The notes: generated from the sequence alone by a model not told the origin. 64,000 nucleotides of DNA from Halorussus marinus (GCF_004765795.1 NZ_SBIV01000001.1:372001-436000), one strand, 5' to 3'. Shown: positions 15,704-38,519, counted from the first letter of the stretch. A program made the numbers and translations.

Positions 15704-16705
15704 ATGAACGTGAGAAGAGTCACACTCGGGGAGTGGGAGAATAGTCTGCCGGCGACCGGAACTGAAGTGTTTCACTCACCGGAGGTGCTTCGGGTCGTAG
15801 ACGAGTACGCGACGGGGGAGCTACGGCTGTACGTCGGCTACCGCGGCGAACAGCCGGTCGGATTTCTCCCCGCGTTCGTCAGGGAACTGGCCGGCGTGCG
15901 GGCGGTGCTCTCGCCGATCCCGGGGTTCAGTCTCTCCCGGATGGGGCCGATCGTCGCGTCGAACAGCCCCAAACAGCGAAAGCGCGAGCGCGTCAACCGG
16001 ACGTTCACCGAGCAACTGCTCGAAACGCTTCGCGAGGGGAGCCTGCTCACGCTGGTGGCGATGGTCTTCAGCACCGAGTACGTCGACCCCCGGCCGTACC
16101 TGCGCGACGGGTTCGACGTCGTCCCGCGATTTACCTACGCGCTGGACCTGCGCGAGACCGACGCCGAGTCGGTTCTCAAGGGGTTCACCCGCGACCTCCG
16201 GTCGGAGATACGCAAGCTCGAAGACACCGACCTCGACGTCGCTGTCGGCGGCGCCGCCGACGCGGTTCGGGTGTACGACGACTACTGCGAACGGTTCGCC
16301 GAGCAGGGCGCGGAGTTCCCCACGCCGCGGGCCTACACTCGCGAGATCGTGGCCGCGCTCGGCGACCGCGCCCGCGTCTACACCGCCGCGAGCCCCGACG
16401 GGTCGTTTCTGGGCGGCGTCTCGGTGCTTTACTCCGGAGAGACCGCCTACTTCTGGCAGGGCGGGATGCGCGCCGACTACGACGGGCTGAGCGTCAACAG
16501 CCTCCTCCACTGGCGGATCGTCGAGGACATACTCACGGACCCGGAGCTGGACTCGATCGAGCGCTACGACCTCGGTCGCGCCGCGGTCGAGCGCCTCGGC
16601 CGGTACAAGAGCAAGTTCAACCCCGAGCTGGTCCCGTACTACGAGGTCCGATCGAGCAAACTGCTGTGGGTCGCAAAGAAGCTCTACGAGTTCGTGACCT
16701 ACTGA
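15704..16705 (+). CDS. FemAB-like GNAT-fold transferase
   Basis: 333 residues, no signal peptide. The protein has two halves of the GNAT fold, as in FemAB/FemX and lipid II:glycine transferases: FHSPEVLRVV and VGYRGEQPVGFLPAFV in the first, FLGGVSVLYSGETAYFWQGG and VNSLLHWRIVEDIL in the second, ending YKSKFNPELVPYYEV. In bacteria such enzymes add amino acids from aminoacyl-tRNA to cell-wall precursors; in archaea the acceptor is unknown. TATA-like GTTTAAGAG at 15658-15666 precedes the chosen ATG (alternative start 15656 overlaps that box). It opens the surface-polymer locus, and a second FemAB-like gene lies at 24884-25948. Confidence 0.8.
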   Translation: MNVRRVTLGEWENSLPATGTEVFHSPEVLRVVDEYATGELRLYVGYRGEQPVGFLPAFVRELAGVRAVLSPIPGFSLSRMGPIVASNSPKQRKRERVNRTFTEQLLETLREGSLLTLVAMVFSTEYVDPRPYLRDGFDVVPRFTYALDLRETDAESVLKGFTRDLRSEIRKLEDTDLDVAVGGAADAVRVYDDYCERFAEQGAEFPTPRAYTREIVAALGDRARVYTAASPDGSFLGGVSVLYSGETAYFWQGGMRADYDGLSVNSLLHWRIVEDILTDPELDSIERYDLGRAAVERLGRYKSKFNPELVPYYEVRSSKLLWVAKKLYEFVTY

Positions 16706-16820
16706 TCGGTCGAGCGGCGACCGGGCTCGGTCGGACTCTCGGCGGCCCGGCGCTCGACGCCGCCCTGAGTTCACAGACAGCCGGTATCTTTTATTCTATT
16801 CGGGTAGTGGTCGTGTCGTG

Positions 16821-16949
16821 ATGGACGCAGTTTCGAGCGGCGCCGCCCGGTCGGTGCCGCCCGTCCCGAGTCGAGTGAGTTCGGCCACCCCGGCGGGCGC
16901 GTGCGGGTCTGCCGGACGCGATCGCCGGCCGACGGAGGCCGTCGCGTGA
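16821..16949 (+). CDS. Possible 42-residue upstream ORF coupled to the phosphodiesterase
   Basis: ATG 16821 lies about 25 bp below TATA-like TCTTTTATTCTA (16786-16797), the correct place for a leaderless start. The 42-residue frame (MDAVSSGAARS...) ends in TGA 16947-16949, overlapping GTG 16946 of the next gene as GTGA. The peptide resembles no family and is not acidic. It may act as a translated leader instead of a functional protein. Confidence 0.35.
   Translation: MDAVSSGAARSVPPVPSRVSSATPAGACGSAGRDRRPTEAVA
16934..16938 (+). promoter_or_regulatory. Shine-Dalgarno GGAGG fixing the GTG start at 16946
   Basis: GGAGG ends 7 nt before GTG 16946. The next in-frame candidate, ATG 16964, has no such site, so the GTG start is preferred. 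Confidence 0.45.
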
Positions 16950-18574
16950 CCGCGACCACGTCGATGCGGACGCTACTCGTCGGGATCGACGCCGCGTGTT
17001 TCCCGGTGCTCGATCCGCTGTTCGAGGCCGGGGCGACACCGACGCTCGACCGACTGTTCGCGGACGGCGTCGCCGGCCGACTCGAATCCCAGATTCCGCC
17101 GTGGACCCCGAGCGCGTGGCCGTCGCTGTACACCGGGGTCAACCCCGGCAAGCACGGCGTGTTCGACTTCCTGACGTTCGACGGCTACGACTGGGACGTC
17201 GTCAACCACAGCCACGTCCGCGAACACGCCCTCTGGGAGGTGCTCGATCGACGGGGGCTGTCGAGCGTCGTCGTGAACGTCCCGGTGACCTACCCGCCCC
17301 GCGAGTTCGACGGCGCGCTCGTGCCGGGCTACACCGCCCCGGAGGACCCCGAGTGCCACCCGGCGGGGCTCCTCGAAGACGTGCGGGCGGCGATCGGCGG
17401 GTACAGCGTCTACGCGCCCGGGGAGCTCTCGGACCGCGACCGCGGGGAGACGATCGACGGCTACCGGGAGGCCGCCCGGATGCGGGGGGAAGCGTTCCGG
17501 TATCTCGCCGACCGGTTCGACCCCGAGTTCGGGTTCGTGGAGTTCCAGTACACCGACACCGTGTTTCACGAACTCCCCGAAGACGACGGGGCGATCCGGG
17601 CGGCGTACGCCGCGGTCGACGAACAGATCGACGCGATCCTCGAGGAGTGCGATCCGGACACCGTCGTGGTCGCCAGCGACCACGGCATCGGCGAGTACGA
17701 CGGCTACGAGTTCCGCGTCAACGAGTTTCTCAGAAACCGGGGGTACGCCGAGACCACCCGGGGCGGCGGCTCGCTCCCCTCGTGGTCGTCGGTGGTGCGC
17801 AACAACCTCATGCGGGGCGAGGCCGACGCCGACCGAACGCCGTCCCCGCTCGAACGCGCGCTCGACCTCGCCGCTCGGGTCGGACTCACGAGCCAGCGCC
17901 TCGGCGCCGCCCTCGAAGCGGTCGGCCTCGACGACCTCGCGCTCGAATACGTGCCCGACGACGCGATTCGCGCCGGGACCGAGCGGGTGTCGTTCCCGGA
18001 GTCGGCGGCATACATGCGCTCGCGCATCGAGTGCGGAATCCGGCTCAACGTGGCGGGCCGCGAGCCCGAGGGCGTCGTCGCGCCCGAGGAGTACGACGCG
18101 GTCAGGGAGTCGCTGATCGAGGCGCTCCGCGAGGTCCGGACGCCCGACGGCGAGGCGGTGTTCGACGCCGTCTTGCCCCGCGAGGCGGTGTTCGACGGCC
18201 CGTACGTCGAGGACGCGGCCGACGTCGTGCTCGTGCCCGCCGACTACGACCACTACCTCTCGTCGCTGTTGCTCGGCGACGAGTTCGGCGAGCCGTGGCA
18301 GTCGCACAACCACAAGCGGTACGGAATCGTCGCGGCCGCCGGCGCCGGCGTCGACGCCTCGGCCGGCGTCGGCGACGCCCACCTCTTCGACGTCGCGCCC
18401 ACGGTGCTCGCGACCCTCGGCGTTCCCGCGAGCGAGCGCATGGACGGGCGCCCGTTGCCGTTCGTCGAGCCGGTCGGCACGGAACGCTACTCCGACTTCG
18501 AGGGCGGCCCCGCCGCCGAGGCGGTCGACCGCGATGTCGAACGGCGACTCTCGGACATGGGGTATCTCGAGTGA
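16946..18574 (+). CDS. Alkaline-phosphatase-superfamily enzyme (type I phosphodiesterase-like)
   Basis: 542 residues from GTG 16946 (536 from ATG 16964). Metal-binding Asp sits in LLVGIDAACF. The nucleophile threonine lies in PPWTPSAWPSLYTGVNPGKH, followed by GVFDF, a pattern of type I phosphodiesterase/nucleotide pyrophosphatases. The second metal set is in VVASDHGIGEYDGYEF, and the last histidine is in SHNHKRYG. No signal peptide or membrane helix is seen, so it is probably cytosolic. In this locus it may transfer or remove phospho-groups on polymer precursors. The C-terminus DMGYLE resembles the DLGYLQ end of the sulfatase-fold gene at 26971, a shared feature of the family. Confidence 0.83.
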   Translation: MTATTSMRTLLVGIDAACFPVLDPLFEAGATPTLDRLFADGVAGRLESQIPPWTPSAWPSLYTGVNPGKHGVFDFLTFDGYDWDVVNHSHVREHALWEVLDRRGLSSVVVNVPVTYPPREFDGALVPGYTAPEDPECHPAGLLEDVRAAIGGYSVYAPGELSDRDRGETIDGYREAARMRGEAFRYLADRFDPEFGFVEFQYTDTVFHELPEDDGAIRAAYAAVDEQIDAILEECDPDTVVVASDHGIGEYDGYEFRVNEFLRNRGYAETTRGGGSLPSWSSVVRNNLMRGEADADRTPSPLERALDLAARVGLTSQRLGAALEAVGLDDLALEYVPDDAIRAGTERVSFPESAAYMRSRIECGIRLNVAGREPEGVVAPEEYDAVRESLIEALREVRTPDGEAVFDAVLPREAVFDGPYVEDAADVVLVPADYDHYLSSLLLGDEFGEPWQSHNHKRYGIVAAAGAGVDASAGVGDAHLFDVAPTVLATLGVPASERMDGRPLPFVEPVGTERYSDFEGGPAAEAVDRDVERRLSDMGYLE

Positions 18575-18648
18575 CAGGCGAGCTAAAACGTGTCGCGATC
18601 GCGACCGACGTACAAGATATCCGTCACGCAGACATATAGTAAATCGTG

Positions 18649-18708: not shown

Positions 18709-19653
18709 ATGCTTCCTGACGAGGAGACAAACCGGGAGGGAGGGGGTTCGCCATCTGTCGAGGGGTCGAGCGATTCGCACGAGGAGACCGATCGTTCCAC
18801 CGAACGCGACTGTTCCGATTCCGACGACGTCCGCACCACCAGCCGTCGGTCGTACGTGAAACTGCTCGGCGGCGCCGTCGCCGTGACCGGACTGAGCGCC
18901 GGCCGAAACACCGCCACAGCGGTTCAGGAGGGCGGCCCGCCGAACCGCGCCGACAGGGTGATCGCGCTCGAAGACCGCTTCGAGGACGGGTCGCTCGACA
19001 GCGACACCTGGGAGACCGGCTGGGGGTGGGGGACCCGAACCCGGACGAGCCCGACCCGGATGGTGCCCGAGAACGTGACGGTGACCGACGGCCAGCTCAG
19101 GCTCGAAGCGAGCCACGAGGGCGGCAAGATCCTCTCAGGGTCGGTGAACACCAAGAACAAGGTGACCGTCGAGCCCGGCTCGTACTTCGAGGCGAAGATC
19201 AAGTTCCCCGACCGGGACGGATTTCTGCCGGCGTTCTGGGCCAAACCGAACGACGAGACCTGGCCGCCCGAGATCGACGTCGTCGAACTGTTCCAGAAGG
19301 GCGGCGGGCGCCCCGACACCCACTACTCTCACCACCACCTCCACTACTCGACTTCGACGAACCCCGGCGATAGGTCGACCTACGAGGGGATGGGCAAGTC
19401 CTACACGCCCGGCGACGACCTCACCCAGAACTTCCACGTCTACGGGGTCGACTGGCGGCGCGACCGGATCGTCCACTACGTCGACGGCGAGCCGGCGATG
19501 GTGACGACCGATCCGACGGTGCTGGACGCGATGGCGAAGGGCGCGCCGTTCTACCTGATGTGTACGCTCGAAGTCAACAAGATCGGAACCGCGCCGACCG
19601 ACGAGGAGTGGGACGAACAGTTCGTCGTCGACTGGACGCGAGTCTGGGAGTGA
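18709..19653 (+). CDS. Tat-exported GH16-family glycoside hydrolase
   Basis: 314 residues. A long acidic leader carries the twin-arginine motif SRRSYVKLLGG (Arg46-Arg47) and a hydrophobic stretch, so the folded enzyme is exported by Tat. The mature part is a GH16 beta-jelly-roll with catalytic motif WPPEIDVVELF: nucleophile Glu188, Asp190 and acid/base Glu193. HVYGVDWRRDRIVHYVDGE is the typical next strand. GH16 enzymes cut beta-1,3/1,4-glucans, galactans and similar chains. Sitting inside a polymer-synthesis locus, it may trim or release the surface polysaccharide; dietary use is the alternative. Two paralogues follow. GH16 1 and 2 share the stretch PGDDLTQNFHVY. Confidence 0.88.
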   Translation: MLPDEETNREGGGSPSVEGSSDSHEETDRSTERDCSDSDDVRTTSRRSYVKLLGGAVAVTGLSAGRNTATAVQEGGPPNRADRVIALEDRFEDGSLDSDTWETGWGWGTRTRTSPTRMVPENVTVTDGQLRLEASHEGGKILSGSVNTKNKVTVEPGSYFEAKIKFPDRDGFLPAFWAKPNDETWPPEIDVVELFQKGGGRPDTHYSHHHLHYSTSTNPGDRSTYEGMGKSYTPGDDLTQNFHVYGVDWRRDRIVHYVDGEPAMVTTDPTVLDAMAKGAPFYLMCTLEVNKIGTAPTDEEWDEQFVVDWTRVWE

Positions 19654-19702: not shown

Positions 19703-20644
19703 CTACTGCTGCCAGACGCGCACCCACTCGGCGTCGAACGTCTCGCCCCACTGCTCGGAGCGGTCGGCCCGACCGAGCGAGCCGCTGAGGTCCCCGCCGA
19801 CGTTGATGTCGAGGTTCAGCTTGAGGTAGAAGGGCGCGCCCTTCCGGAACGACTCGAGTATCGTGCTGTCGGTCCAGGTTTTGATCTCTTGGCCGTCGAC
19901 GTAGTAGGTGATCCGGTCGTTTTGCCACTCGGCGGCGTAGACGTGGAAGTTCTGGGTGAGGTCGTCGCCGGGCTCGTGGAAGTGGCTGACCCGCTGGCTG
20001 GTCGAGTCGTCGCCGGGGGTCGTCGAGACCGAGTAGTGCATGAAGTGTCGGGACGTGTGGGTGTCGTCGCGACCGCTCCCGTCTTGGGCCAACTCGACGA
20101 CGTCGAGTTCGGGCGGCCAGTCGTTGGTCGCGGGCTGGCCCCAGAACGCGGGGTGGAAACCGACCCGATCGGGAAATCGGAGCTTGGCTTCGACGTAACT
20201 GCCGGGACCGAACTCGACGTTGCCTCTGGTGTGGACCCCGCCGCTCAACACCGAATCGCCGTCGTGGGTGCCCCGGAGGCGGAGGCCGGTGCCGTCGACG
20301 CTCACGTTTTCGGGAACGATCGTGGCGTCGCTGGCGGTCGACTCGTCGCCCCATCCCCAGCCGACGCTCCAGGCCGATTCGTCGAGCGATTCCGCGTCGA
20401 ACGTGTCTTCGAAGGCCGGCGACCACGAGTCGGGATTCGGCGGGCCGCCGTCGGTGTCTTGGGCGCCGAGGGCCGCCGTCGACCCGAGACCGATCGCGGC
20501 GAGACTTCCTCCGGACAGTCGGAGGAATCGCCGTCGGCTCGAACCGCGGTCGGCCTCGGCGTCGCTCGGGGGGCGCTGTTCGGACGGGGGCTGGTCGTCG
20601 CCGCGCTGCTGTGTCGCGTTAGGTAGGTTCTCTGACCGACGCAT
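19703..20644 (-). CDS. Tat-exported GH16-family glycoside hydrolase (second copy)
   Basis: 313 residues, convergent with the first GH16 gene. The Tat signal is SSRRRFLRLSGGSLAAIG (RR at 36-38). The catalytic motif is WPPELDVVELA (Glu179, Asp181, Glu184), with all three residues intact. FPDRVGFHPAFWG and PGDDLTQNFHVYAAEWQNDR align with the neighbour, so the pair arose by duplication. An AT-rich promoter candidate CTTAGTTAAAT (20665-20675) lies 21-31 bp upstream of the ATG, fitting a leaderless transcript. The mature enzyme should act outside the cell on beta-glycans. Confidence 0.88.
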   Translation of the reverse strand: MRRSENLPNATQQRGDDQPPSEQRPPSDAEADRGSSRRRFLRLSGGSLAAIGLGSTAALGAQDTDGGPPNPDSWSPAFEDTFDAESLDESAWSVGWGWGDESTASDATIVPENVSVDGTGLRLRGTHDGDSVLSGGVHTRGNVEFGPGSYVEAKLRFPDRVGFHPAFWGQPATNDWPPELDVVELAQDGSGRDDTHTSRHFMHYSVSTTPGDDSTSQRVSHFHEPGDDLTQNFHVYAAEWQNDRITYYVDGQEIKTWTDSTILESFRKGAPFYLKLNLDINVGGDLSGSLGRADRSEQWGETFDAEWVRVWQQ

Positions 20645-20974: not shown

Positions 20975-21042
20975 TTTCCGATACCGCGCGGCCCCGGTAG
21001 CTTACACTTAAATCCTAGACCTGTCATTGAAGATTTCCGGAA

Positions 21043-21050
21043 GCTATATC
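21043..21050 (+). promoter_or_regulatory. TATA box for the third GH16 gene
   Basis: GCTATATC lies 28-35 bp upstream of ATG 21078, supporting that ATG as a leaderless start over the earlier in-frame ATG at 21027. Confidence 0.5.
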
Positions 21051-21077
21051 AATGGCCGGTTAACCATTGAAAATTGC

Positions 21078-22571
21078 ATGGCACGCGACGATACTGCACG
21101 CGAACGCTCCCCCGAAACGACCGCCCCCGACAACCGCGAGAACGACTCGAAGCTCCTCGGCCGCCGCGAGTACATGCGGCTGGCAGGCGCGAGCGTCGCC
21201 GCGCTCGGTCTCGGTGCCTCCTCGGCCACGGCCGACGAGGGCGGCCCCGAGAACTCCGACGACTGGGAACTGGCCTTCGAGGACCAGTTCGACGCCGGCT
21301 CGCTCGACACCGACAAGTGGAGCGTCGGCTTCGGCTGGGGTCGCACCACGAACTCCCCCGAGCGCATCGTCGACCGCAACGTCTGGGTCGAAAACGAGCG
21401 CCTCCACCTCAAGGTGACCCACGACGGCGGCTCGGGGTCGGTGTACGCGGGCGCCGTCAACACCAAGAACAAGGTCACGTACGGCCCGGGCACCTACTGG
21501 GAAGCCCGACTGCGTACCCCCGACCGCCACGGCCTCCTCCCGGCGTTCTGGGCGAAGTCCAACACCGAGCAGTGGCCCCCGGAGATCGACTTCTTCGAGA
21601 TGCTCGGCAACGACCCCACCTCCTCGCACCACAACGTCCACTACGACAGCACGGGCGGGATGGGCGGCAACCACTCGGAGCTCAAGATGCACAATCCCGA
21701 CCTCGGCTCGACGACCGACTTCCACGTCTACGGCTGTGCGTGGTACGACGACCGAGTCGAGATGTACGTCGACGGCCAGCTCGTGGGCACCCACGACGAC
21801 CCGACCGCGATGGAGTCGCTGCGGACGGGCGCGCCGTTCTACATGATGCTCAACATCCACGTCGGCCGGACGGGCACCCCCGACTACAGCGAGTCGTGGG
21901 GCGACCAGATGGACGTCGACTGGGTCCGGGTCTGGGAGCAGTCCTCGAACGACGGTTCGAGCACGGACACCTCGTCGACCGACACCGAGGAGACGACCGA
22001 TCTCCCGAACACGCTGAGCGTCAGCGGCGACGGCTCCGAGTCGGTCTCCTACAGTTTCAGCGTCACCGACACGATCGAGAAGAGCACGGCGCGAGACGGG
22101 AGCATCTCCCCCGAGGACACGATCGACAGCGGTGACGTCGAAGGTATCGTCGCCGGGGGAACCGACAGCTACGACTACGCGGGCCGGATCTCGTCGTTCA
22201 GCGTCGACGGGAGCGCGACGATCTACCGGAACGGCGACCGGGTCTCGGCGTCGTCGCTCGGGAGCACCTCGACTCAGACCACCGACGACGCCACCGCCGG
22301 GGACGCCGACTCCTCGCTCCCCAATCTGGTCGTCGTCGACGGCTCGAACGCACCCAACCGAGTCACCTCATACACGTTCGAGGTGGACGGCGACGTCGCC
22401 AAGGACCCCGAGCACGGATCGATCAACGCCTTCGACGACATTTCCGACGGCACGGTCTCCGGGCGAGTCGTCGGCGGCAAGGACGCCTACCGCTTTGCCG
22501 GCGAGATCACCCGGTTCGAGACCGACGGCGCGGCGTTCGTCTCGGTGCAGGACAGCGCCGACTCGAACTGA
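21078..22571 (+). CDS. Tat-exported GH16 hydrolase with duplicated C-terminal beta domain
   Basis: 497 residues. Tat motif LGRREYMRLAG (Arg29-Arg30). The GH16 catalytic domain runs from about 55 to 290, with active-site motif WPPEIDFFEML (Glu169, Asp171, Glu174). A Ser/Thr/Asp-rich linker leads into two related C-terminal units, about 312-385 and 415-492. Each follows the plan YSFSVT or YTFEVD, then IDSGDVEGIVAGG or ISDGTVSGRVVGG, then DYAGRISSFSVDG or RFAGEITRFETDG. Such units are probably carbohydrate- or wall-binding modules; I know no family name with certainty. The enzyme is extracellular and likely attached to, or directed at, an insoluble polymer. It is the longest of the three GH16 copies and the only one with these modules. 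Confidence 0.87.
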   Translation: MARDDTARERSPETTAPDNRENDSKLLGRREYMRLAGASVAALGLGASSATADEGGPENSDDWELAFEDQFDAGSLDTDKWSVGFGWGRTTNSPERIVDRNVWVENERLHLKVTHDGGSGSVYAGAVNTKNKVTYGPGTYWEARLRTPDRHGLLPAFWAKSNTEQWPPEIDFFEMLGNDPTSSHHNVHYDSTGGMGGNHSELKMHNPDLGSTTDFHVYGCAWYDDRVEMYVDGQLVGTHDDPTAMESLRTGAPFYMMLNIHVGRTGTPDYSESWGDQMDVDWVRVWEQSSNDGSSTDTSSTDTEETTDLPNTLSVSGDGSESVSYSFSVTDTIEKSTARDGSISPEDTIDSGDVEGIVAGGTDSYDYAGRISSFSVDGSATIYRNGDRVSASSLGSTSTQTTDDATAGDADSSLPNLVVVDGSNAPNRVTSYTFEVDGDVAKDPEHGSINAFDDISDGTVSGRVVGGKDAYRFAGEITRFETDGAAFVSVQDSADSN

Positions 22572-22687: not shown

Positions 22688-23689
22688 GTGGAGGAAAACG
22701 TGTCCGACGACGCAGACGGTCCGCTCGTGTCCTACATTCTGGCGACCTACGGTCGGCCCGACGAGCTCAGAGACGCCGTCGACTCGATCGTCGACCAGAC
22801 GTATCGGCCTCTCGAGATCGTCGTGGTGGGCGACACCAGCGACGAGGTCCGCCGGCTCTTCGAGTCGGGGGGCCGCTTCGACGAGGAGTGGATCCACTAC
22901 CACCGAAACACCGAGCGACGCGGCCCGGGCTACGCCAAGAACATCGCTTACGAGCACGCGACCGGCGACATCGTCGTCCAGATCGACGACGACGCCACGC
23001 TCGTCGACGACGACGCGACCGAGACGGTGGTCTCGCTGTTCGAGGACCACGAGGACGTCGGCATCCTCGCGTTCCAGAGCCGGAACGCCGACACCGACGA
23101 GGTGAAACTCGACGAGACACCCGACCCGCCGGAGTTCCACATGACCCCGACCGAGCCCTACCGAGCGACCAACTTCGTCGGGGTCGGCTGTGCGTTCCGC
23201 CGGGCGGCGATCGAGGCGGCCGGCGGGCTCTACCCGGACAACTTCACCTACGGGTTCGAGGAGATGGATCTCTCGCTGCGCGTCCACGACACGGGCTACG
23301 ACATCCTCTACACCCCGTCGATCGCGGTCGCCCACAAGAAGTCCCCGGGCGCGCGCCGCGAGACGACCGAGACGCAGGTGCGACTGGTCGAGAGCCGGAT
23401 CAAGCTCGCGGTCCGGAATCTCCCGTGGCGCTACGTCGCGTTCACCGCGCTGGGGTGGTCGGTGTACGCGCTCGCGCTCACCCGGAGCCCGGCGGCGCTG
23501 GCGGCTGTCCTCCGGGGCGTCTACGAGGACCGCCGGGAGCTACTGGCCGAGCGACGCGTCGTCGACGATCGGACGATCGCCCGGATCAAGTCCCGGAAGA
23601 CGATGCTTTACTTCTGGTGGTACGGACCCCACCCGGGCCGAATCCTGCCGCCGAACGGGAACCTCGACCGGCTGAAGTGGGAGGCCTGA
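22688..23689 (+). CDS. Glycosyltransferase family 2
   Basis: 333 residues from a GTG start. The GT-A fold begins with VSYILATYGRPDELRDAVDS, the metal-binding DxD equivalent is QIDDDATL, and the acceptor-side motif is YGFEEMDLSLRV, matching the ED base region of GT2 enzymes. A hydrophobic patch near 245-275 (YVAFTALGWSVYALAL) may be a monotopic membrane contact. It transfers an activated sugar to a lipid-linked or polymer acceptor at the inner face of the membrane. It stands between the GH16 genes and the convergent deacetylase-FemAB-GT4 operon. Donor sugar is unknown. Confidence 0.86.
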   Translation: MEENVSDDADGPLVSYILATYGRPDELRDAVDSIVDQTYRPLEIVVVGDTSDEVRRLFESGGRFDEEWIHYHRNTERRGPGYAKNIAYEHATGDIVVQIDDDATLVDDDATETVVSLFEDHEDVGILAFQSRNADTDEVKLDETPDPPEFHMTPTEPYRATNFVGVGCAFRRAAIEAAGGLYPDNFTYGFEEMDLSLRVHDTGYDILYTPSIAVAHKKSPGARRETTETQVRLVESRIKLAVRNLPWRYVAFTALGWSVYALALTRSPAALAAVLRGVYEDRRELLAERRVVDDRTIARIKSRKTMLYFWWYGPHPGRILPPNGNLDRLKWEA

Positions 23690-23697: not shown

Positions 23698-24879
23698 TCA
23701 CTGGACGACCGGCGACGCGTCGACGTCGACTCGCGAGACCTCACGGTACAGATCGAGGTGCCGGCGCGCGATGGACTCCCACGAGAGCTCTTCTGCCATC
23801 CGGCGGCTGTTTCTCGCCATCCGGTCGCTCGCTTCGGGGTCGGTCAGAACCGACACGAGCGCCTCGGCGAGTCGCTCGGGGTCCTCGGGCGGGACCACGA
23901 CCCCGGCGCCCGATCGCTCGACGAGTTCGGGGAAGTCGCCCGCCGACGTCGAGACGACCGGCTTGCCGAACGAGAAGGCGGTCGCTAGCGCGCCGCTGTG
24001 GCCCTTCGTCCCGTCCTGCTCGCGGTACGGGAGCGCGACGACCTCCGACCGAGCGAAAAAGCGCTTTACCTCCTCGTTGGGCACGAAGTAGTTGTGTATC
24101 TCGAAGCTCTCGGGGTGGTCGTCGATGATCGCCCGCGACCCCGCGGTGATGCGGCCGTCGCCGGCGACGAGGAGTTCGACGTCCGGGAGCTCGCGTTTCA
24201 CCAGCGGGATCGCCTCGATCAGCGTGTCGAGGCCCTTCGGCGGGACGACGTTGCCGAAAAAAAGCACCGTGTTGGGCCGGGTCTCGACGTCGGTGTCCTC
24301 GCTGTCCCCGAACACCGAGTAGGCGCCGTGAGGGATGACCTCGATCCGGTCGCCCCCTCTGTTCTGGCGCCGGAGCGCTCGCTTCTGGTTTTCGGTGTGG
24401 ACCACCACGCCGTCGACGTCGAGGTCGGGCAGGGCGCTGTTTATGAGTTCCTCGACGAACACCGGCGGTCGCGACAGCGAGAAGGGATCGCTTGGCACCT
24501 CGTGGTGGGTCACGACCAGCGGCCCCAGTTCGTCGATCCGGTGGAGCCACGAGAACAGTTTGACCTGCGGAAAGAGACCGGTGGTGATGTGGGTGACGTC
24601 GGTCTCGATCTCCGCGACGCGCTTCAGGTTGTTGTACGAGAGCAGTCCCCGGACGAACTCGACGGGGTCGACGTTCAGGTTGTAGAGGTTCGGCATCGAG
24701 ACGCTGATCGAGCCGAACGCCTCCACGAGCTCGATCTCGTCGACGAACAGGTCGTCGGCGGTCGTCTCGGCCGGTTTCATCACCGTGACCTCGGCGTGTT
24801 CGGTCATGGCGTTGGCGAGTTCGGCGGTGTAGTGGGGCAGTCCCCCGGCGTTCTGTCCGATGACGTAGAGCACCTTCAT
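23698..24879 (-). CDS. Glycosyltransferase family 4
   Basis: 393 residues, GT-B fold. N-terminal Rossmann half starts MKVLYVIGQNAGGLPHY, with glycine-rich acceptor loop. The C-terminal donor-binding half has LFFGNVVPPKGLDTLIEAIP and the nucleotide-sugar motif region GHSGALATAFSFGKPVVSTS, then GDFPELVE. These are hallmarks of retaining GT4 enzymes using NDP-sugars. It is the last gene of a three-gene operon with FemAB-like and deacetylase genes, each separated by 4 nt. It probably adds a sugar to the polymer backbone or to an acceptor lipid on the cytosolic side. Confidence 0.87.
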   Translation of the reverse strand: MKVLYVIGQNAGGLPHYTAELANAMTEHAEVTVMKPAETTADDLFVDEIELVEAFGSISVSMPNLYNLNVDPVEFVRGLLSYNNLKRVAEIETDVTHITTGLFPQVKLFSWLHRIDELGPLVVTHHEVPSDPFSLSRPPVFVEELINSALPDLDVDGVVVHTENQKRALRRQNRGGDRIEVIPHGAYSVFGDSEDTDVETRPNTVLFFGNVVPPKGLDTLIEAIPLVKRELPDVELLVAGDGRITAGSRAIIDDHPESFEIHNYFVPNEEVKRFFARSEVVALPYREQDGTKGHSGALATAFSFGKPVVSTSAGDFPELVERSGAGVVVPPEDPERLAEALVSVLTDPEASDRMARNSRRMAEELSWESIARRHLDLYREVSRVDVDASPVVQ

Positions 24880-24883
24880 GAGC

Positions 24884-25948: not shown

Positions 25949-25952
25949 AGTT

Positions 25953-29618: not shown

Positions 29619-30809
29619 ATGACCCGATCGACGACGGAGTCGGTGTTGCTCTCGGCGAAGTACTCGCCGTCGTGTTATGCGTGTCTGCGGTCGCTCGCCG
29701 AGCGCGGCGTCCGCACCGTCGTCGTCTCGCCCCACGAGGGCGTCCCGGCGTTCGCGTCCAGGTACTGCGAGGAGTCGATCGTGGTGCCGTCGCCGAACGA
29801 CGACCTGCTGGCGTACAGAGACGCGTTGCTGTCGGTCGCCGACCGCCCCGAGGTGGCCGCCTTCGTCCCCATCTGGGAGGAAGACGCCTACCTGCTCGGA
29901 AAGTACGGCGAGGCGTTCGGCGCCCGGGTCGGCGGCGCGTGGCCCGACTTCGAGACGCTCCGGTCCGTTCAGGACCGACTCCGACTGGCGGAGGTCGCCG
30001 CCGACGCGGGCGTGGCCGTCCCGGCGACCCAGTCGTTCGACGACGTCGACGACTGGGACCGCGAGCGCATCCTCAAGTCGCGGTACAACCTCCTCGCCGG
30101 CGAGTACGTCGACTCGTTCTCGGAGCGAGACGCCGAACTCAACAAGACGCTGAAGTACCTCGCGCCCGGCGAAGAGCCCGACCCCGAGACCGTCTACGCG
30201 GCGCTAAACCACGTCCCGATCGCTCAGGAGACCGTCACCGGGGGCGCCGACGAGTACGCGTTCATCGCGCTGTACGACCGGGGCGAGCCGGTCGCGACGT
30301 ACCAGAAACACCAGATCCGGGCCAAGACCTACGCCGGCGGGACCAGCGTCTACCGGGAGTCGGTGGCGGTCCCGGCGCTCGAACGGGCCGGCCGGGCGTT
30401 GCTCGACGAGCTCGACTGGCACGGTCTCGCGGAGGTGGAGTTCCTCAGAGACCCCGAGACGGGCGAGTTCGAGCTGATGGAGGTCAACCCCCGGATGTGG
30501 GCGTCGGTCGCGTGCGCGATCGAGGCCGGTGCCGATTTCCCGTACTACTACTGGCGGCTCGCGACCGGCGAGGCCGACGGGATCGACGACGAGTACGCGG
30601 TCGGGACGGGGAACCACTCGCTGTTCGGCGAACTCCAGCACCTCTCGAGCGTGCTCCGGGACGACTACCCCGACGTCGAGCGACCGGCGTTCGACCGGCG
30701 ACTCTGGGAGATCGCCGCCTCGTGTTACAGCCAGCCCAACTTCGACTACCTCCGGCTCGACGACCCCGGCCCGTTCGTCCGGGGCGTGCGCGACGCCGTT
30801 CGGCTCTGA
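29619..30809 (+). CDS. ATP-grasp carboxylate-amine ligase (copy 2)
   Basis: 396 residues. Same layout as copy 1: N-terminal VLLSAKYSPSCYACLRSLAE, lysine strand ERILKSRYNLLAGEY, NHVPIAQETV, and Mg-binding ELMEVNPRMWASVACAIEAG. Catalytic residues appear intact. It matches copy 3 closely in residues about 135-190 (SFDDVDDWDRE then SERDAELNKTLKYL) and at the C-terminus (CYSQPNFDYLRLDDPGPFVR). Substrates are unknown. The small gaps between the three genes (97 and 162 bp) suggest related but not strictly coupled expression. Confidence 0.82.
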   Translation: MTRSTTESVLLSAKYSPSCYACLRSLAERGVRTVVVSPHEGVPAFASRYCEESIVVPSPNDDLLAYRDALLSVADRPEVAAFVPIWEEDAYLLGKYGEAFGARVGGAWPDFETLRSVQDRLRLAEVAADAGVAVPATQSFDDVDDWDRERILKSRYNLLAGEYVDSFSERDAELNKTLKYLAPGEEPDPETVYAALNHVPIAQETVTGGADEYAFIALYDRGEPVATYQKHQIRAKTYAGGTSVYRESVAVPALERAGRALLDELDWHGLAEVEFLRDPETGEFELMEVNPRMWASVACAIEAGADFPYYYWRLATGEADGIDDEYAVGTGNHSLFGELQHLSSVLRDDYPDVERPAFDRRLWEIAASCYSQPNFDYLRLDDPGPFVRGVRDAVRL

Positions 30810-30971: not shown

Positions 30972-32171
30972 ATGCTCACCTACATGGGAGAGAGAATGGG
31001 GGATGCGGTACTGCTGCCCGCGAAGTATTCGCCGTCGTGTTACGCGTGTCTGCGGTCGCTCGCCAAGCGCGGCATCCGCACCGTCGTCGTCTCGGCGAAA
31101 GGGAGCGTGCCGGCGTTCGCGTCCCGGTACTGCGACGAGGCGCTGACGGTCCCGTCGCCCGACGAGGACCTGCTCGCGTACCGCGACGCACTGTTGTCGA
31201 TCGCGGCGCGGCCCGAGGTGAAGACGTTCGTTCCGACCGGCGAGGTCGACGCGTATCTGCTGGCGAAGTACAGCGACGAGTTCGAGGCCCACGTCACCGG
31301 AGTGTGGCCCGACCTCGACCGGCTCCGGCGGGTCCACGACCGACTGCTGTTGGCCGAGGCCGCCGAGGCCGCGGGGGTGCCGTTTCCGGAGACTCAGTCG
31401 TTCGACGACGTCGACGACTGGGACCGCGAACTGGTCATCAAGTCGCGGTACAACCTCCTCGCCGGCGAGTACCTCGACTCGCTGTCGGAGCGAGACGCCG
31501 AACTCAACAAGACGCTGAAGTACCTCCCGCCCGGCGAGCGACCCGATCGGGAGGCCATCCTCGCGGAGATGAACCACGTCCCGATCGTCCAGGAGTGCGT
31601 GCCCAAGCGCGGCGAGTACCTGTTCGGCGCGCTGTACGACCGGGGCGAGCCGGCCGCGACGTTCCAGCACCGCCAGATCCGCGGGGAGACCTACGCCGGC
31701 GGCGGCGGGTCCTACCGCGAGTCGGTCGACATCCCGGCGCTCGAGGAGGTCGGCCGGGCGTTGCTCGACGAACTCGACTGGCACGGGCTGGCCTGCATCG
31801 AGTACATGGAGGACGCAGAGACCGGGGAGTTCGTGCTCACCGAGATCAACCCCCGGATGTGGCGGTCGCTGGCGTTCGCGGTGGCGGCCGGCGCCGACTT
31901 CCCGTACTACTACTGGCAGCTCGCGAACGGCGAGGCCGACCGCTTTGGCGACGGCTACGAGGTCGGCGTCGGCGGCCACTACCTCCACGGCGAGCTGACC
32001 TACCTCCGGAGCGTGCTCCGCGACGAGTACCCGAACGTCGAACGACCCCCGGTCGGCCAGACGGTGTGGGAGATCGCCGCCTCGTGTTACGACCAGCCCA
32101 ACTTCGACTACCTCCGGCTCGACGACCCCGGCCCGTTCATCCGGGGCGTCCGCAGTACGATCCCGATGTGA
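30972..32171 (+). CDS. ATP-grasp carboxylate-amine ligase (copy 3)
   Basis: 399 residues from ATG 30972; ATGs at 30984 and 30996 are alternatives. The N-terminus (VLLPAKYSPSCYACLRSLAK) and central strand (LVIKSRYNLLAGEYLDS) resemble copy 2, whereas EPAATFQHRQIRGETYAGG and ESVDIPALEE resemble copy 1, at DNA level as well. The Mg-binding motif is VLTEINPRMWRSLAFAVAAG, with the E-x-N-P-R signature kept. The mosaic points to gene conversion within the cluster. It ends 193 bp before the flippase gene. Confidence 0.82.
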   Translation: MLTYMGERMGDAVLLPAKYSPSCYACLRSLAKRGIRTVVVSAKGSVPAFASRYCDEALTVPSPDEDLLAYRDALLSIAARPEVKTFVPTGEVDAYLLAKYSDEFEAHVTGVWPDLDRLRRVHDRLLLAEAAEAAGVPFPETQSFDDVDDWDRELVIKSRYNLLAGEYLDSLSERDAELNKTLKYLPPGERPDREAILAEMNHVPIVQECVPKRGEYLFGALYDRGEPAATFQHRQIRGETYAGGGGSYRESVDIPALEEVGRALLDELDWHGLACIEYMEDAETGEFVLTEINPRMWRSLAFAVAAGADFPYYYWQLANGEADRFGDGYEVGVGGHYLHGELTYLRSVLRDEYPNVERPPVGQTVWEIAASCYDQPNFDYLRLDDPGPFIRGVRSTIPM

Positions 32172-32364: not shown

Positions 32365-33822
32365 ATGGATCTCGGCCACTCGACCTTCCGGCTGTTCCTC
32401 TCGAAGGGCGGGAACGCGATCCTCTACTTTCTGGGGCTCGCGTACTTCTCGCGCCACCTGACGCCCGACGAGATGGGGGCGTTCGTCCTCTTTCTCGCGG
32501 TGCTCGGGATCTCCTCGATCCCCGCGGACTTCGGGATCAAGGGCGCACTCGAAAAGCGGCTGAGCGAGGGGACCGACCCCGAGAAGACGCTCGGCTCCGC
32601 GCTGGCGTTCAAGGCGGTCACGCTCGCGGCCGTCGCGACGATCGTTCTCGCCGTCCGGGGCCACATAAACCACTACATCGGCGCGCCGCTGGCGGAACTG
32701 CTGGTCGCGGCGCTGTTCTTCCGGGAGTTTTCGTTCGCGTATCTCTCGGCGCTCCGGGGCCGGCTTCGGGTCGCCGAGACCGCCGTCATCAAACTCACCG
32801 TGCGGTTCGTCTGGATGGTCGGGGGCGCGGTGTTGGTCACCGCGGGCTTCGGCCCGGAGGGACCGATCATCGGGCTGATCGCGGGGCTGGCGGTCGGGCT
32901 CGTCTGGGCGTACCGGCGCCTCGACGTCGGGATCGGCCGCCCGTCGCTCGACCACGTCCGGTCGCTGGTGGCGTTCTCGAAGTACAACACCGTCACCTCG
33001 GTCGGCGGCCGGTTCTACCAGTGGGTCGACATCGCCATCATCGGCTTCCTGCTGACCCAGCTCGACGTCAGCGCCTACGAGTTCGCGTGGCAGATCACCC
33101 TGCTCGTGCTCATGCTGAGCAAGTCGATCTCGCTGTCGATCTTCCCTCAGATAAGCCAGTGGGACGCCGAGTCGGCGACCGACCACATCGAGACCACCGT
33201 CTCGAAGGCGATCGGGGTCGTCCTGTTCGTCTCGGTGCCCGCCATCGTCGGCGTCCAGATCTACGGCGCCGAGCTCCTCCGGGTGGCGTTCGGCCCGGAG
33301 TACGCGTTCGCCACGACGGTGCTTGTCGTCCTGATGGTCGAGAAGCTCATCCAGTCGTTCAACGACATCGTCGAGGCGTCGGTCCGGGCGATCGACCGGC
33401 CGGAGCTCGCCGCGAAGGCGACCGTGATCTCGGTCGGGCTCAACCTCGTCCTGAACCCGGTCCTGATCCTGTGGGTCGGGCTGGTGGGCGCCGCGATCGC
33501 GACCGCCGTCACCGGCCTCCTCAACACCGCGTTACATTACCGGTATCTCACGCGGTTCATCTCGGTCGACGTTCCGTTCCGGCTGGTCGGCTGGTACGGC
33601 CTCGCCTCGTGTGTGATGGGCGGGCTGTTGCTCGGGATTAGACACCTCGTGCCCGTCACCGGCGTGATCACGCTCGTGGCGGAGGTCGGGCTCGGCGTCG
33701 TGATCTATCTCGCGGTCTCGCTCGCGATCCCGGACGTGCGCCGACGCATCCTTCGGCCGGGGCTCCGGGTGCTCGGCGCCCAGCTCGGGGTCGGGGCCGA
33801 CGGGGAGGGCCGGCGATTCTGA
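32365..33822 (+). CDS. Polysaccharide flippase (Wzx/MOP superfamily)
   Basis: 485 residues with about 14 hydrophobic helices and no signal peptide. The opening LGHSTFRLFLSKGGNAILYF and helices such as GLAYFSRHLTPDEMGAFVLF are typical of polysaccharide-transport proteins of the MOP superfamily. It should flip lipid-linked oligosaccharide or polymer subunits from the cytosolic to the outer face of the membrane. It follows the ATP-grasp trio and precedes the DUF2206-like membrane protein, forming the export half of the locus. The C-terminal tail is charged and extends beyond the last helix. Confidence 0.87.
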   Translation: MDLGHSTFRLFLSKGGNAILYFLGLAYFSRHLTPDEMGAFVLFLAVLGISSIPADFGIKGALEKRLSEGTDPEKTLGSALAFKAVTLAAVATIVLAVRGHINHYIGAPLAELLVAALFFREFSFAYLSALRGRLRVAETAVIKLTVRFVWMVGGAVLVTAGFGPEGPIIGLIAGLAVGLVWAYRRLDVGIGRPSLDHVRSLVAFSKYNTVTSVGGRFYQWVDIAIIGFLLTQLDVSAYEFAWQITLLVLMLSKSISLSIFPQISQWDAESATDHIETTVSKAIGVVLFVSVPAIVGVQIYGAELLRVAFGPEYAFATTVLVVLMVEKLIQSFNDIVEASVRAIDRPELAAKATVISVGLNLVLNPVLILWVGLVGAAIATAVTGLLNTALHYRYLTRFISVDVPFRLVGWYGLASCVMGGLLLGIRHLVPVTGVITLVAEVGLGVVIYLAVSLAIPDVRRRILRPGLRVLGAQLGVGADGEGRRF

Positions 33823-33955: not shown

Positions 33956-36211
33956 ATGAGAGCTACTGTCGAGAGGATGGCACGTTCGGTGGACAGCGGC
34001 GTCGTCGCGTTCGGTGGGGTCGTGCTCGGACTACTGGCGGTGTTTTGGGCGACCCCTGCGTTACAGGATGTCGGGGCGCTCGTCCCGGCCGTCCGGGCGT
34101 TCGCGGGGCTCTTCCTGATACTGTTCGCTCCCGGGGCGTTGCTGGCGCGACTGGTCGGCATCCGGCCCGACCGATTCGGCGTGTTCGCGCTGTTCGCGAT
34201 CACCCTCAGTTTCGGCGTCCTGACCCTGCTGAACCTCTTCGTCAGCTTCGTGTTGGCGCCGCTGGGCGTCGCCGAGCCCCTCTCGTTCCTGCCGCTTGCG
34301 GGCGTGCTGTCGGCCGTCCTCGCGGCGCTGTTGGCGGCCATCCACGTCACCGGGACCTCGATGTCGATCCCTCCGATTCGACTCCGCGGCTCGCCGGCGG
34401 TCGTTCTCGGGCTGGTCGCGCTCCCCGGACTCGCGGCCGCGGCCGTGATCGGCGTCGACCAGTTCGGCACCAACCTCGGGATGTTCGCGCTCCTCGGCGG
34501 GGTGATCGCGGTCACGCTACTGGCGGCGACGCGGCTGGTCCCGGGGTCGCTCGCGCCGCTGGCGGTGTTCAGCGTCTCGCTGTCGGTCCTGTTGCACCGA
34601 AACCTCCTGACCGACCACGTCGTCGGCGCCGACATTCAGGCGTCGTACTTCCTGTCGGACCTCCTGTTGGACACCCACTACTGGGCGCCCGACATGGGCG
34701 GGTCGATGATGAGCCTCTCGGTGGTCACCTCGGTTCCGGCGTCGATCACGATGCTGACCGGCCTCGACCTCGCCACCACGTACAAGGTCGTCTACGTGTT
34801 CCTGTTCTCGCTGGTACCAGTCGGGCTCTTCTACGTCAACAGCCGGGTGTTCGACGACCGGATCGCGCTGTTCGGGAGCCTGTTTTTCGTCTTCTACCAC
34901 GGCTCGTTTTACTTCACGCCCGGCAAACAGCTCATGTCCGAGCTTGTGGTCGTCGCGATGCTCCTGTTGGTCGTCTACGAGGGCGTCGACACCGTCGGAC
35001 TGAAGGCCGCGCTGGGGATCTTCGCGGCGACGCTGATCTCGGCTCACTACGGGATGACCTACGCGATCGGTCTGTCGCTACTCGCGGCGGTCGCCGGGCT
35101 CGGAATCGTCCGGCGGCTAGGCGGGGACTTCGACCACGACCTCTCGATCTGGCAGCCGGTCGTCCTGCTCGGGGCCGCGACCGCCTTCTACGCGTACAGC
35201 GCGCCCGATCTGGTCGATCGGCTCGGGGCGCTCCCGTTCGGGATCGTCGACCAGCTCGTGACGCTCGCGATCACCGGCGCCGTTCCGGGCTCGGGGGCCA
35301 GCTACGTCTCGGGCGAGACCGGGCTCCTCGACTCGCTCCGGCTGTACCTGTACCTCCTGCTAACGGGGCTGATCGGGCTCGGGCTGGCCCGGGACGTCCT
35401 CGGGCGACTCGACCGAATCCGGACCGGCGCCGACCCCGGGTACGTCGAGTACGCCGCGCTGGCGGTCCCGCTGTTCGCGTTTCTCGGCTCGTCGTACTTC
35501 GTCATCGCCAACCTCTGGGCCGACCGGGTGTACCAGCTCGTGCTGACGATCCTCGCGCCGTACGCGGCGGTCGGGGTCGCCACCGTGTTCGGCGGCGCCG
35601 GCGCCGTCCTCGACCGTGCGAGCGCGGCGCTCGGCCGGACGAGCCGAGCCGCGAGCGACGGCGGCGTCCGGCGACGGCTCGGAGGCGCCCACTGGACCCT
35701 GCTGGCGGTCGTGCTGGCCGCGGTGCTCGCGCTCAACTCGGGACTGGCGTTCGCGCTCGTCGGGACCGCCGACGCGTCCGGGTTCAACGCCGAGACCAAC
35801 GACCTGACGTTCAACGGACCAGAGCGCGAGGCCGCCGACTGGCTGGTCGACAACGCCACCGCCATCGAACGCTACGACCGGCTGGGCGCCGACGACGGCG
35901 CGGCGACGCTCCCGATCTACACCGAGCCGAGGAGCTACCAGCTGTTCCGAGCGGTCGCCCTCCCGGGGTACACCAACGTCGAAATCCGGTATCTAAAGAG
36001 TCAGTGGCGGCCGACGGTGTTCCCCGCGGAGGTCGAGGAGGGGTACGTCTTCGTTCGCCAGCGGAGCGTCGACCCCGACGCGCGGTCGGCCGACCTCCCG
36101 CCGTCGATGCTCTCGGGGAGCACCGTCGGGAACCTCTCGGGCCCCCGAAACGTGGTGTACGCGAGCGAGTCGGCCCGGATCATGGACTCGAACACGACCG
36201 CGGTCCCGTGA
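33956..36211 (+). CDS. Large multispanning membrane protein (DUF2206-like)
   Basis: 751 residues with about 14-16 membrane helices, then a C-terminal soluble part (about 600-751) rich in EREAADWLVDN-type motifs. A central loop contains DIQASYFLSDLLLDTHYWAP and PGKQLMSELVVVAMLLLV, features I associate with archaeal DUF2206 proteins found among surface polysaccharide genes. By topology it could be a GT-C glycosyltransferase or a polymerase working on the outer membrane face; an acidic residue in the first outer loop (ADIQ) may be its metal site. Function is not established. A TATA-like CATATATATT is upstream. Confidence 0.72.
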   Translation: MRATVERMARSVDSGVVAFGGVVLGLLAVFWATPALQDVGALVPAVRAFAGLFLILFAPGALLARLVGIRPDRFGVFALFAITLSFGVLTLLNLFVSFVLAPLGVAEPLSFLPLAGVLSAVLAALLAAIHVTGTSMSIPPIRLRGSPAVVLGLVALPGLAAAAVIGVDQFGTNLGMFALLGGVIAVTLLAATRLVPGSLAPLAVFSVSLSVLLHRNLLTDHVVGADIQASYFLSDLLLDTHYWAPDMGGSMMSLSVVTSVPASITMLTGLDLATTYKVVYVFLFSLVPVGLFYVNSRVFDDRIALFGSLFFVFYHGSFYFTPGKQLMSELVVVAMLLLVVYEGVDTVGLKAALGIFAATLISAHYGMTYAIGLSLLAAVAGLGIVRRLGGDFDHDLSIWQPVVLLGAATAFYAYSAPDLVDRLGALPFGIVDQLVTLAITGAVPGSGASYVSGETGLLDSLRLYLYLLLTGLIGLGLARDVLGRLDRIRTGADPGYVEYAALAVPLFAFLGSSYFVIANLWADRVYQLVLTILAPYAAVGVATVFGGAGAVLDRASAALGRTSRAASDGGVRRRLGGAHWTLLAVVLAAVLALNSGLAFALVGTADASGFNAETNDLTFNGPEREAADWLVDNATAIERYDRLGADDGAATLPIYTEPRSYQLFRAVALPGYTNVEIRYLKSQWRPTVFPAEVEEGYVFVRQRSVDPDARSADLPPSMLSGSTVGNLSGPRNVVYASESARIMDSNTTAVP

Positions 36212-36269
36212 CCGACGCGGCGCGTTCGCGACGGGCGCGGTACGAAAAGAGCGATAGTGGCCGACGACC

Positions 36270-37604: not shown

Positions 37605-37636
37605 CAATTCTCGCAAGGAATTTTCCCGCCGACGGC

Positions 37637-37662
37637 CTTTGTTATGAACCAGCTACCCGAAC
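37637..37662 (-). promoter_or_regulatory. Shared promoter-like element, copy A
   Basis: On the minus strand GTTCGG-N11-ATAACAAAG. The same two blocks occur at 48794-48819 (N11) and 52778-52806 (N14), each upstream of a minus-strand gene. Here it is 33 bp upstream of ATG 37604, within range of a basal promoter; ATAACAAA may be the TATA equivalent. Confidence 0.5.
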
Positions 37663-37686
37663 GTCCAGTTTACTGTACTATTCTGT

Positions 37687-37720
37687 GTGTAATTATGTCG
37701 GCGGAAACGCCGAATTACAC
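37687..37720. repeat. Hairpin with GAAA loop
   Basis: Outer stem GTGTAATT/AATTACAC (8 bp), a four-base bulge ATGT, inner stem CGGCG/CGCCG closed by GAAA, a GNRA-type loop. Thirteen base pairs in 34 nt are unusual for this spacer. It lies upstream of both divergent genes, so it is not a terminator for either. Confidence 0.6.
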
Positions 37721-37894
37721 CTGTCCGGTCCCAAATAAATAGGTCGTGGAGTCGGCCTGCCGCTCGCGGTCGGACACCTATCAGCGACCGAACCGTCGGC
37801 CGGGACGACGACGCCGGTGAAACGATCGCGACCGTCGGCGTGACCGCCGGTTCCGGCCGCGATCCGGCGGCGTCCCGACGCGGCGGGCAGGAGC

Positions 37895-37903
37895 CTTATT
37901 AGG
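37895..37903 (+). promoter_or_regulatory. TATA-like box for the DUF1616 gene
   Basis: CTTATTAGG lies 26-34 bp upstream of ATG 37929, consistent with a leaderless or short-leader mRNA. Confidence 0.5.
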
Positions 37904-37928
37904 GCGTGTCTCGTCAGAGACCGAGAAG

Positions 37929-38519
37929 ATGGTCCTCGACAGAGTCGCGGCGTGGGTCGCCAGCGCGTTCGACATAAACGGCCGACACAGCGCCGCGGTG
38001 AACGCGCTCGTCCTCGTGGTCGCGATCGCCGGGATCGCCGGCGTCGGCTACACCGCCGCGGTCTCGGAAGGCACCCACGAGTACACCGAGTTCTACCTGC
38101 TGGCCGAAAACGAGTCGGGCGAACTGGTCGCCCAGGGGTATCCGGCGTCAATCCAGTCCGAACGGCCAAACGAGTTCCACGTCGGGGTCGAGAACCACCG
38201 GAGCGAGCCGACGACCTACTCGGTCGTCGTGAAACTCCAGCGGATGTACACCGCCAACGAGACGCCGGAGGTGCTCGAAGAGGAGACCGTCACCGTCGAT
38301 CGAGTCCCGCTGGCGGCCGACGCCGGCACCGTCGAGCGACTCAACGTCTCTCCGGAGATGCGGGGCTCTGACATGCGCTTGCGATTCTTGCTCTATCCCG
38401 ACGATCCGCCCGAGAACGCCTCGATCGAGACCGCCTCCCACGAGACCCACCTCTGGCTGAACGTCACCGCGCCCGCCGAGAGCGACGCCACCGCGTCCGC
38501 GGGCCTGCCGTCGCGGTAG
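37929..38519 (+). CDS. DUF1616-family membrane-anchored protein
   Basis: 196 residues. A short cytosolic N-terminus, one membrane helix (about 25-44, NALVLVVAIAGIAGVGYTAA), then an extracytoplasmic beta-sandwich domain of about 140 residues with N-glycosylation sites (NES, NET, NVS, NAS). The pattern EYTEFYLLAENESGELVAQG and the later EFHVGVENHRSEPTTYSVVV are characteristic of the archaeal DUF1616 family, often encoded near surface glycan genes. Role unknown; it may be a structural or assembly protein for the polymer. It has its own promoter and is the last gene I assign to the polymer locus. Confidence 0.75.
   Translation: MVLDRVAAWVASAFDINGRHSAAVNALVLVVAIAGIAGVGYTAAVSEGTHEYTEFYLLAENESGELVAQGYPASIQSERPNEFHVGVENHRSEPTTYSVVVKLQRMYTANETPEVLEEETVTVDRVPLAADAGTVERLNVSPEMRGSDMRLRFLLYPDDPPENASIETASHETHLWLNVTAPAESDATASAGLPSR

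Follow-up and report, generated by a model that had tools for sequence, protein, structure and literature searches.

The 64,000-nt window analysed here, part of the 3.76-Mb genome of the haloarchaeon Halorussus marinus, contains a surface-polysaccharide locus whose polysaccharide deacetylase and FemAB-like transferase (FemAB2) are encoded next to each other. We think it reasonably likely that this locus serves an exopolysaccharide (EPS) pathway in which a lipid-linked amino sugar is deacetylated and its freed amine aminoacylated by FemAB2 before export. Aminoacylation of a cell-surface glycan from transfer RNA (tRNA) is known for bacterial peptidoglycan and, to our knowledge, such a cell-wall-style reaction has not been shown in Archaea. 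We would give an even chance to the broader proposal that haloarchaea decorate surface polysaccharide with tRNA-derived amino acids through FemAB, with a tethered protein bearing C-Ala, a tRNA-binding domain of alanyl-tRNA synthetase (AlaRS), as a dedicated tRNA-bringing partner in many lineages.

Results

The evidence that we present consists of observed gene content, conservation, catalytic residues, predicted folds and the C-Ala neighbourhood of FemAB genes in sister loci. In the deacetylase, residues D16, E18, H84, H88, R122 and H237 are invariant and supply the catalytic Asp, metal ligands, RxP and C-terminal His motifs of NodB/CE4 enzymes; its TIGR03006 score of 215 bits lies under the cut-off of 276, as does that of FemAB2 against TIGR03019 (191 bits, cut-off 260). 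A profile of haloarchaeal FemAB2 sequences matched eight PDB sequences below 1e-8, all of them FemX or aminoacyl-tRNA-dependent peptide synthases. The AlphaFold2 (AF2) model of FemAB2 (pLDDT 83.6) has the tandem GNAT fold of the FemX type (FemX E 4e-16, TM about 0.7), and its first 12 fold matches are FemX, FemA, Sbb17/Sba18 and MprF, with GNATs that depend on coenzyme A (CoA) ranking behind. F294-K295 of FemAB2, invariant in 11 sequences, aligns with the position of FemX Lys305 which, like its counterpart in DhpH-C, is a catalytic lysine (PMC12945691). The first-pass annotation had proposed checking structures and active sites, and both the FemX-like fold of FemAB2 and the intact catalytic residues of the two enzymes support its reading of them as a pair. 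The nearest homologues of FemAB2 and the C-Ala gene next to FemAB in sister loci indirectly suggest that its donor is most likely an aminoacyl-tRNA.

Conservation was assessed in an order-wide sample of 295 genomes, with cut-offs of E <= 1e-45 for the deacetylase and E <= 1e-30 for FemAB2. The deacetylase was found in 25 genomes and FemAB2 in 19, with both present in 13 compared with 1.6 expected (hypergeometric P = 7e-12, uncorrected for relatedness). We also searched up to 40 kb of sequence surrounding the deacetylase at 27 loci with all window proteins; since some of these loci are short, the resulting counts are lower bounds. The most frequent members are a dolichol phosphate (DolP)-sugar synthase-like glycosyltransferase, GT2J (27 loci), FemAB (25), a Wzx-type flippase (23) and a DUF2206 protein (22), with a GT4 glycosyltransferase within 20 kb of the deacetylase at 20. 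Less constant companions are ATP-grasp ligases and DUF1616 (16 each), YdjM (12), GH16 hydrolases and the glycosyltransferase GT2a (10 each) and a sulfatase-fold enzyme (9), and the second FemAB-like gene, FemAB1, and a phosphodiesterase recur at only four loci and one, respectively. The 27 loci span at least six haloarchaeal families, with carriers including Haloferax mucosum (L091), Haloferax massiliensis, Haloprofundus marisrubri, Halorubellus salinus, Haloarcula amylovorans, Halococcus thailandensis and Halalkalicoccus paucihalophilus. Overall gene order and orientation differ between genomes and presence is patchy (25/295), and a tight order of deacetylase-FemAB-GT4 or GT2J-deacetylase-FemAB recurs across families. 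Because the same genes recur jointly in other genera, and because the deacetylase and FemAB co-occur beyond expectation, the locus is not a chance cluster; the scatter of homologues that the first-pass annotation had named as contrary evidence is not what we find for FemAB and the deacetylase. H. mucosum is documented as an EPS producer (PMC9549778, citing Lopez-Ortega 2020). A short contig filed as a gammaproteobacterial metagenome-assembled genome (L104:1-3327) carries a haloarchaeal-type Wzx and deacetylase (58% identical), and is probably misbinned.

In sister loci, FemAB is accompanied by a protein of about 220 amino acids in which an N-terminal hydrophobic stretch is followed by RRRER, a coiled coil and a DHHA1 domain. 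Its profile matches the C-terminus of AlaRS (2zvf 3e-11, 3wqy 1.8e-9, 3g98 7.5e-8), with DHH nucleases matching at 0.06 only, and in NCBIfam it matches archaeal AlaRS (TIGR03683) over 744-897. Single sequences score 17.5-25.5 against Pfam DHHA1, just below the cut-off of 25.9, so it is the profile evidence that decides the assignment. Fifteen genomes of the order carry this protein (E <= 1e-30) as an entity distinct from AlaRS itself, and in 15/15 it is encoded immediately next to a FemAB gene. C-Ala binds the corner of tRNA-Ala (Kd near 1 uM) and brings the editing domain to this tRNA (PMC3158927). An aminoacyl-tRNA donor is favoured because a tRNA-binding domain of this kind adjoins FemAB in every one of these genomes. 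The N-terminus is probably a membrane anchor with the remainder of the protein inside, one of the two proteins tested having passed the hydropathy threshold, and the simplest reading is that the C-Ala protein would tether tRNA at the membrane for use by FemAB. In a phylum-wide sample of 345 genomes no C-Ala partner was found outside the order, the one carrier itself belonging to the same order, and our searches of the open-access literature turned up neither a pairing of FemAB with C-Ala nor an archaeal polysaccharide locus containing FemAB. Halocatena salina, which lies outside the 15 genomes, also has a C-Ala gene beside FemAB. On a Halobaculum marinum plasmid, deacetylase-FemAB-GT4 is directly followed by a tryptophanyl-tRNA synthetase gene (L129:21401-22558), which was seen once only and was not used.

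The first-pass annotation had joined the ATP-grasp ligases with the deacetylase and the FemAB-like genes in one locus, and here its claim needs to be weakened. The three genes lie in tandem on the same strand and all encode an ExNPR motif, with E285, N287, P288 and R289 invariant in 12 sequences and K151, the ATP-binding Lys, nearly so; PDB profile matches are to carbamoyl phosphate synthetase-like enzymes and biotin carboxylases. Near the deacetylase the family is strongly enriched, at 16/27 loci where under 1% per locus would be expected from rough copy number, and because of this enrichment a part for it in the pathway is likely. The family (E <= 1e-60) is, however, present in 135/290 haloarchaeal genomes and mostly elsewhere, so that the idea of a family dedicated to this pathway was rejected: it is widespread and often unlinked. 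What stands of the original proposal is thus a surface-polysaccharide locus with conserved co-occurrence of the deacetylase and FemAB, intact active sites and a FemAB nearest to aminoacyl-tRNA-dependent enzymes, whereas the ATP-grasp linkage is weaker than claimed. In many haloarchaea, orphan ATP-grasps of the same family were seen beside apparently unrelated housekeeping genes (L105-L112, L117, L118, L122, L123). Many deacetylase loci also have an FkbM-type methyltransferase gene beside the ATP-grasp gene (e.g. L087:7593-8462), with one present at 14/27 and none in the window.

Among the remaining enzymes, GT2J is nearest to the models for AglJ (122 bits) and the polyprenyl-phospho-GalNAc synthase PpgS (118 bits), both scores lying under the cut-off. 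A PDB sequence search with the DUF2206 protein returned nothing; a search with its AF2 model gave GT-C folds for nine of the ten best PDB matches (AftA, STT3, PglB; best E 1.6e-3, TM 0.33-0.40). AftA, STT3 and PglB are GT-C enzymes that use lipid-linked donors outside the cell. The GH16 proteins have twin-arginine translocation (Tat)-like motifs and an intact ExDxxE. The C-terminus of the third GH16 protein (22000-22571) holds two repeats of about 90 amino acids; this region recurs within separate proteins in the same loci of other genera, and it is possible that it is a polymer-binding domain. The first-pass annotation had described the enzyme at 26971-28218 as sulfatase-fold, and the fold is indeed present; the sulfatase nucleophile motif C/S-x-P-x-R is absent (no CxPxR), with an invariant Thr52 at the formylglycine Cys position, and the name sulfatase was therefore rejected. 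No hydrophobic helix is predicted in the deacetylase, FemAB2 or the ATP-grasps. Because of the helix, Tat and fold predictions, the compartments fit a pathway in which synthesis, deacetylation and aminoacylation would take place inside, followed by the flip, with transfer and trimming outside.

The features of the locus are collected in Table 1. Coding frames were chosen by codon-position GC and families named by Pfam/NCBIfam scans, and all of the gene families named in the first-pass annotation were recovered where it had placed them. Its 4-nt spacing of the deacetylase, FemAB and GT4 genes is exact (gaps 25949-25952 and 24880-24883). It had also counted two FemAB-like genes and a phosphodiesterase as part of the set, and these are present; FemAB1 and the phosphodiesterase fall outside the conserved core, and we rejected them as core members on their locus counts (4/27 and 1/27). 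FemAB1 forms a separate clade in the FemAB tree (support 100/100), and the phosphodiesterase has Thr69 at the nucleophile position. The pair (15656-18574) recurs as a module of its own in Haloferax elongans (L102), H. larsenii (L103) and G125 (L119). Further along the window, 45142-52537 encodes two large surface proteins with PKD repeats, of which the second also bears PGF-CTERM, a motif of archaeosortase substrates.

Table 1. Genes of the locus, numbered from the first nucleotide of the window, and C-Ala genes of sister loci
Feature	Position	Strand	Family, motif or remark
FemAB1, divergent Acetyltransf_6 protein, peripheral	15656-16705	+	PF13480
Type I phosphodiesterase fold, peripheral	16901-18574	+	PF01663
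GH16 hydrolase, Tat-like signal	18709-19653	+	PF00722; ExDxxE, RRxYV
GH16 hydrolase, Tat-like signal	19703-20644	-	PF00722; ExDxxE, RRxFL
GH16 hydrolase, Tat-like signal, C-terminal repeats	21027-22571	+	PF00722; ExDxxE
GT2a glycosyltransferase	22688-23689	+	PF00535
GT4 glycosyltransferase, co-directional with FemAB2 and deacetylase	23698-24879	-	Pfam
FemAB2, FemABX-like double-GNAT transferase, predicted aminoacyltransferase	24884-25948	-	PF13480
NodB/CE4 + DUF3473 polysaccharide deacetylase, predicted cytosolic	25953-26879	-	PF01522, PF11959
Alkaline-phosphatase-superfamily (sulfatase-fold) enzyme, predicted cytosolic	26971-28218	+	PF00884
ATP-grasp 1	28325-29521	+	NCBIfam PRK06849/PRK12767; without Pfam match; 54% identical to ATP-grasp 3
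ATP-grasp 2	29619-30809	+	Pfam/NCBIfam; ExNPR motif
ATP-grasp 3	~30996-32171	+	ExNPR motif; PDB profile matches
Wzx/MurJ-type flippase	32365-33822	+	PF13440, PF01943, PF03023
DUF2206 polytopic protein, probable GT-C glycosyltransferase	33956-36211	+	PF09971; AF2 model
GT2J, DolP-sugar synthase-like/AglJ-like GT2, two C-terminal hydrophobic helices	36270-37616	-	NCBIfam; hydrophobicity
DUF1616 protein, recurs with locus	37929-38519	+	PF07760
YdjM-type membrane protein, recurs with locus	38526-39080	-	PF04307
C-Ala genes	L053:17737-18408, L075:17472-18131, L074:1422-2084, L086:7639-8298, L094:6343-7002
C-Ala genes, further	L069:17569-18240, L068:1877-2521, L096:5928-6572, L128:19882-20535, L161-L166

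Discussion

In the pathway that we propose, GT2J would make a DolP-linked sugar, probably an N-acetylhexosamine, from which the cytosolic deacetylase would strip the acetyl group. FemAB2 would then add an aminoacyl residue to the freed amine, most likely from aminoacyl-tRNA, and in sister loci the probably membrane-anchored C-Ala protein would keep the tRNA at the membrane. GT4 and GT2a may extend the chain, and the ATP-grasps may form a further amide bond, either on the carboxyl of a uronic acid or on the amino acid already attached. Wzx would flip the product, the GT-C-like DUF2206 protein would transfer sugar from a DolP-linked donor outside, and the secreted GH16 enzymes could trim or release the polymer. 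The chemistry is wholly our own reconstruction: we infer every reaction, donor, amino acid and acceptor in this scheme. Several observations weigh against it. The C-Ala gene was not found in the window by tblastn and occurs in sister loci only, where it mostly accompanies a FemAB subtype with only about 28-30% identity to the FemAB2 of the window; the FemAB of G232 is the only one with a C-Ala neighbour that groups with the window type (tree support 99/98). The FK motif may be a common feature of Acetyltransf_6 proteins, and is no proof of a tRNA donor. The fold similarity of DUF2206 to GT-C enzymes is modest, and those ATP-grasp copies whose surroundings were read mostly sit among unrelated genes.

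The identity of the donor invites the most direct challenge. FemAB2 could be an acyl-CoA N-acyltransferase, in which case the pair would swap the acetyl group for another acyl and no amino acid would be involved. Such a role would be compatible with the GNAT fold, with the CoA-dependent tandem GNATs lower in the fold list and with the lack of a C-Ala gene in the window, and the donor of the related HfsK was left open by its authors (PMC5362036). We nonetheless regard it as unlikely, given that the nearest solved proteins by both sequence and structure are aminoacyl-tRNA-dependent, with CoA enzymes behind, and that a tRNA-binding domain beside FemAB would have no obvious role with a CoA donor. 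A different challenge concerns the acceptor, as the locus might serve N-glycosylation, with the glycan passed by AglB to Asn residues of S-layer proteins or pilins rather than becoming a free polysaccharide. No oligosaccharyltransferase was found among the 20 genes scanned, the presence of three secreted GH16 hydrolases suggests a polymer and the deacetylase/FemAB pair is that of bacterial EPS loci, which together make this quite improbable even though GT2J is nearest to AglJ. The combination of Wzx and a GT-C protein also resembles the Haloferax AglR/AglS step, a precedent for a DolP-sugar donor in N-glycans (PMC4335974); against this, the Haloarcula hispanica DolP-sugar synthase AepG, encoded in an agl-type cluster, serves EPS and not N-glycans (PMC9943897).

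It might also be that amide chemistry here is the work of the ATP-grasps, acting on uronic-acid carboxyls, while the deacetylase/FemAB pair makes an unrelated change. The catalytic motif is intact, the genes are enriched in deacetylase loci and an amino-acid-decorated EPS containing galacturonic acid is described for Vibrio alginolyticus (PMC4663550). With the family usually unlinked to glycan genes, and with 11/27 loci lacking an ATP-grasp while FemAB is kept in 25/27, we hold this to be quite improbable as well. Finally, variable order and orientation and a patchy distribution could suggest that unrelated glycan genes with no common product have come together by chance or in an island. For the locus as a whole this is hardly credible, as the set, with its tight internal order, is shared by at least six families; a chance cluster is refuted for the core, and is possible for FemAB1 and the phosphodiesterase.

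Aminoacylation by FemAB2 of a deacetylated, lipid-linked sugar would, if true, have several consequences. It would provide an archaeal case in which tRNA-dependent glycan aminoacylation works without murein, and it would assign a role to the FemAB/deacetylase pair, which is uncharacterised in bacterial XrtA EPS loci. Amines or amino acids on the otherwise acidic EPS of haloarchaea would also change ideas on salt and cell binding. With C-Ala encoded beside FemAB, the identity of the acyl donor used by FemAB in EPS loci can be put to a direct test.

Comparison with known systems

Close parallels are the bacterial XrtA/PEP-CTERM EPS loci, for which we took comparison loci from plasmid records. 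These share an adjacent deacetylase-FemAB pair (TIGR03006 and TIGR03019) followed by glycosyltransferases (Vibrio), and in Nitratidesulfovibrio an ATP-grasp (ATPgrasp_ST) and a flippase are encoded at the locus as well; the haloarchaeal locus differs in its archaeal DolP-type GT2, its DUF2206 protein and another ATP-grasp family. Membership of the XrtA system was rejected, as the deacetylase and FemAB score below the cut-offs and PF09721 found no exosortase in the genome itself, a search that did not extend to archaeosortase models. No Wza/Wzc-type export genes were found among the genes scanned at the locus. In the Caulobacter holdfast, acyl transfer by HfsK to amines exposed by HfsH has been suggested (PMC5362036), likewise pairing a polysaccharide deacetylase with a Fem-like GNAT within a single EPS pathway; that system is non-archaeal, and the HfsH model matches a sister deacetylase weakly (18 bits). 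Given these two precedents, the claim of the first-pass annotation that the acceptor would be new was overstated.

FemX, FemA and Sbb17 share with FemAB2 the double-GNAT fold and the position of the catalytic Lys, whereas identity to FemX and Sbb17 is 14-16% in fold alignments, the acceptor here cannot be murein and sister loci add a C-Ala partner. That partner aligns with the helical dimerisation part and C-Ala of archaeal AlaRS, and differs from AlaRS and AlaX in lacking aminoacylation and editing domains, in its N-terminal hydrophobic stretch and in adjoining FemAB. Among archaeal systems, the H. hispanica EPS genes (AepG, HAH_1661-1667) likewise include a DolP-sugar synthase, glycosyltransferases, a polysaccharide biosynthesis protein and an 'arylsulfatase A', but in that acidic EPS the DolP-linked sugar is glucuronic acid, and a deacetylase is unmentioned in PMC9943897. 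The kind of system that we describe is thus known from bacteria, and what is new is an archaeal version without a detected exosortase, with dolichol-type genes and with a C-Ala partner in sister loci.

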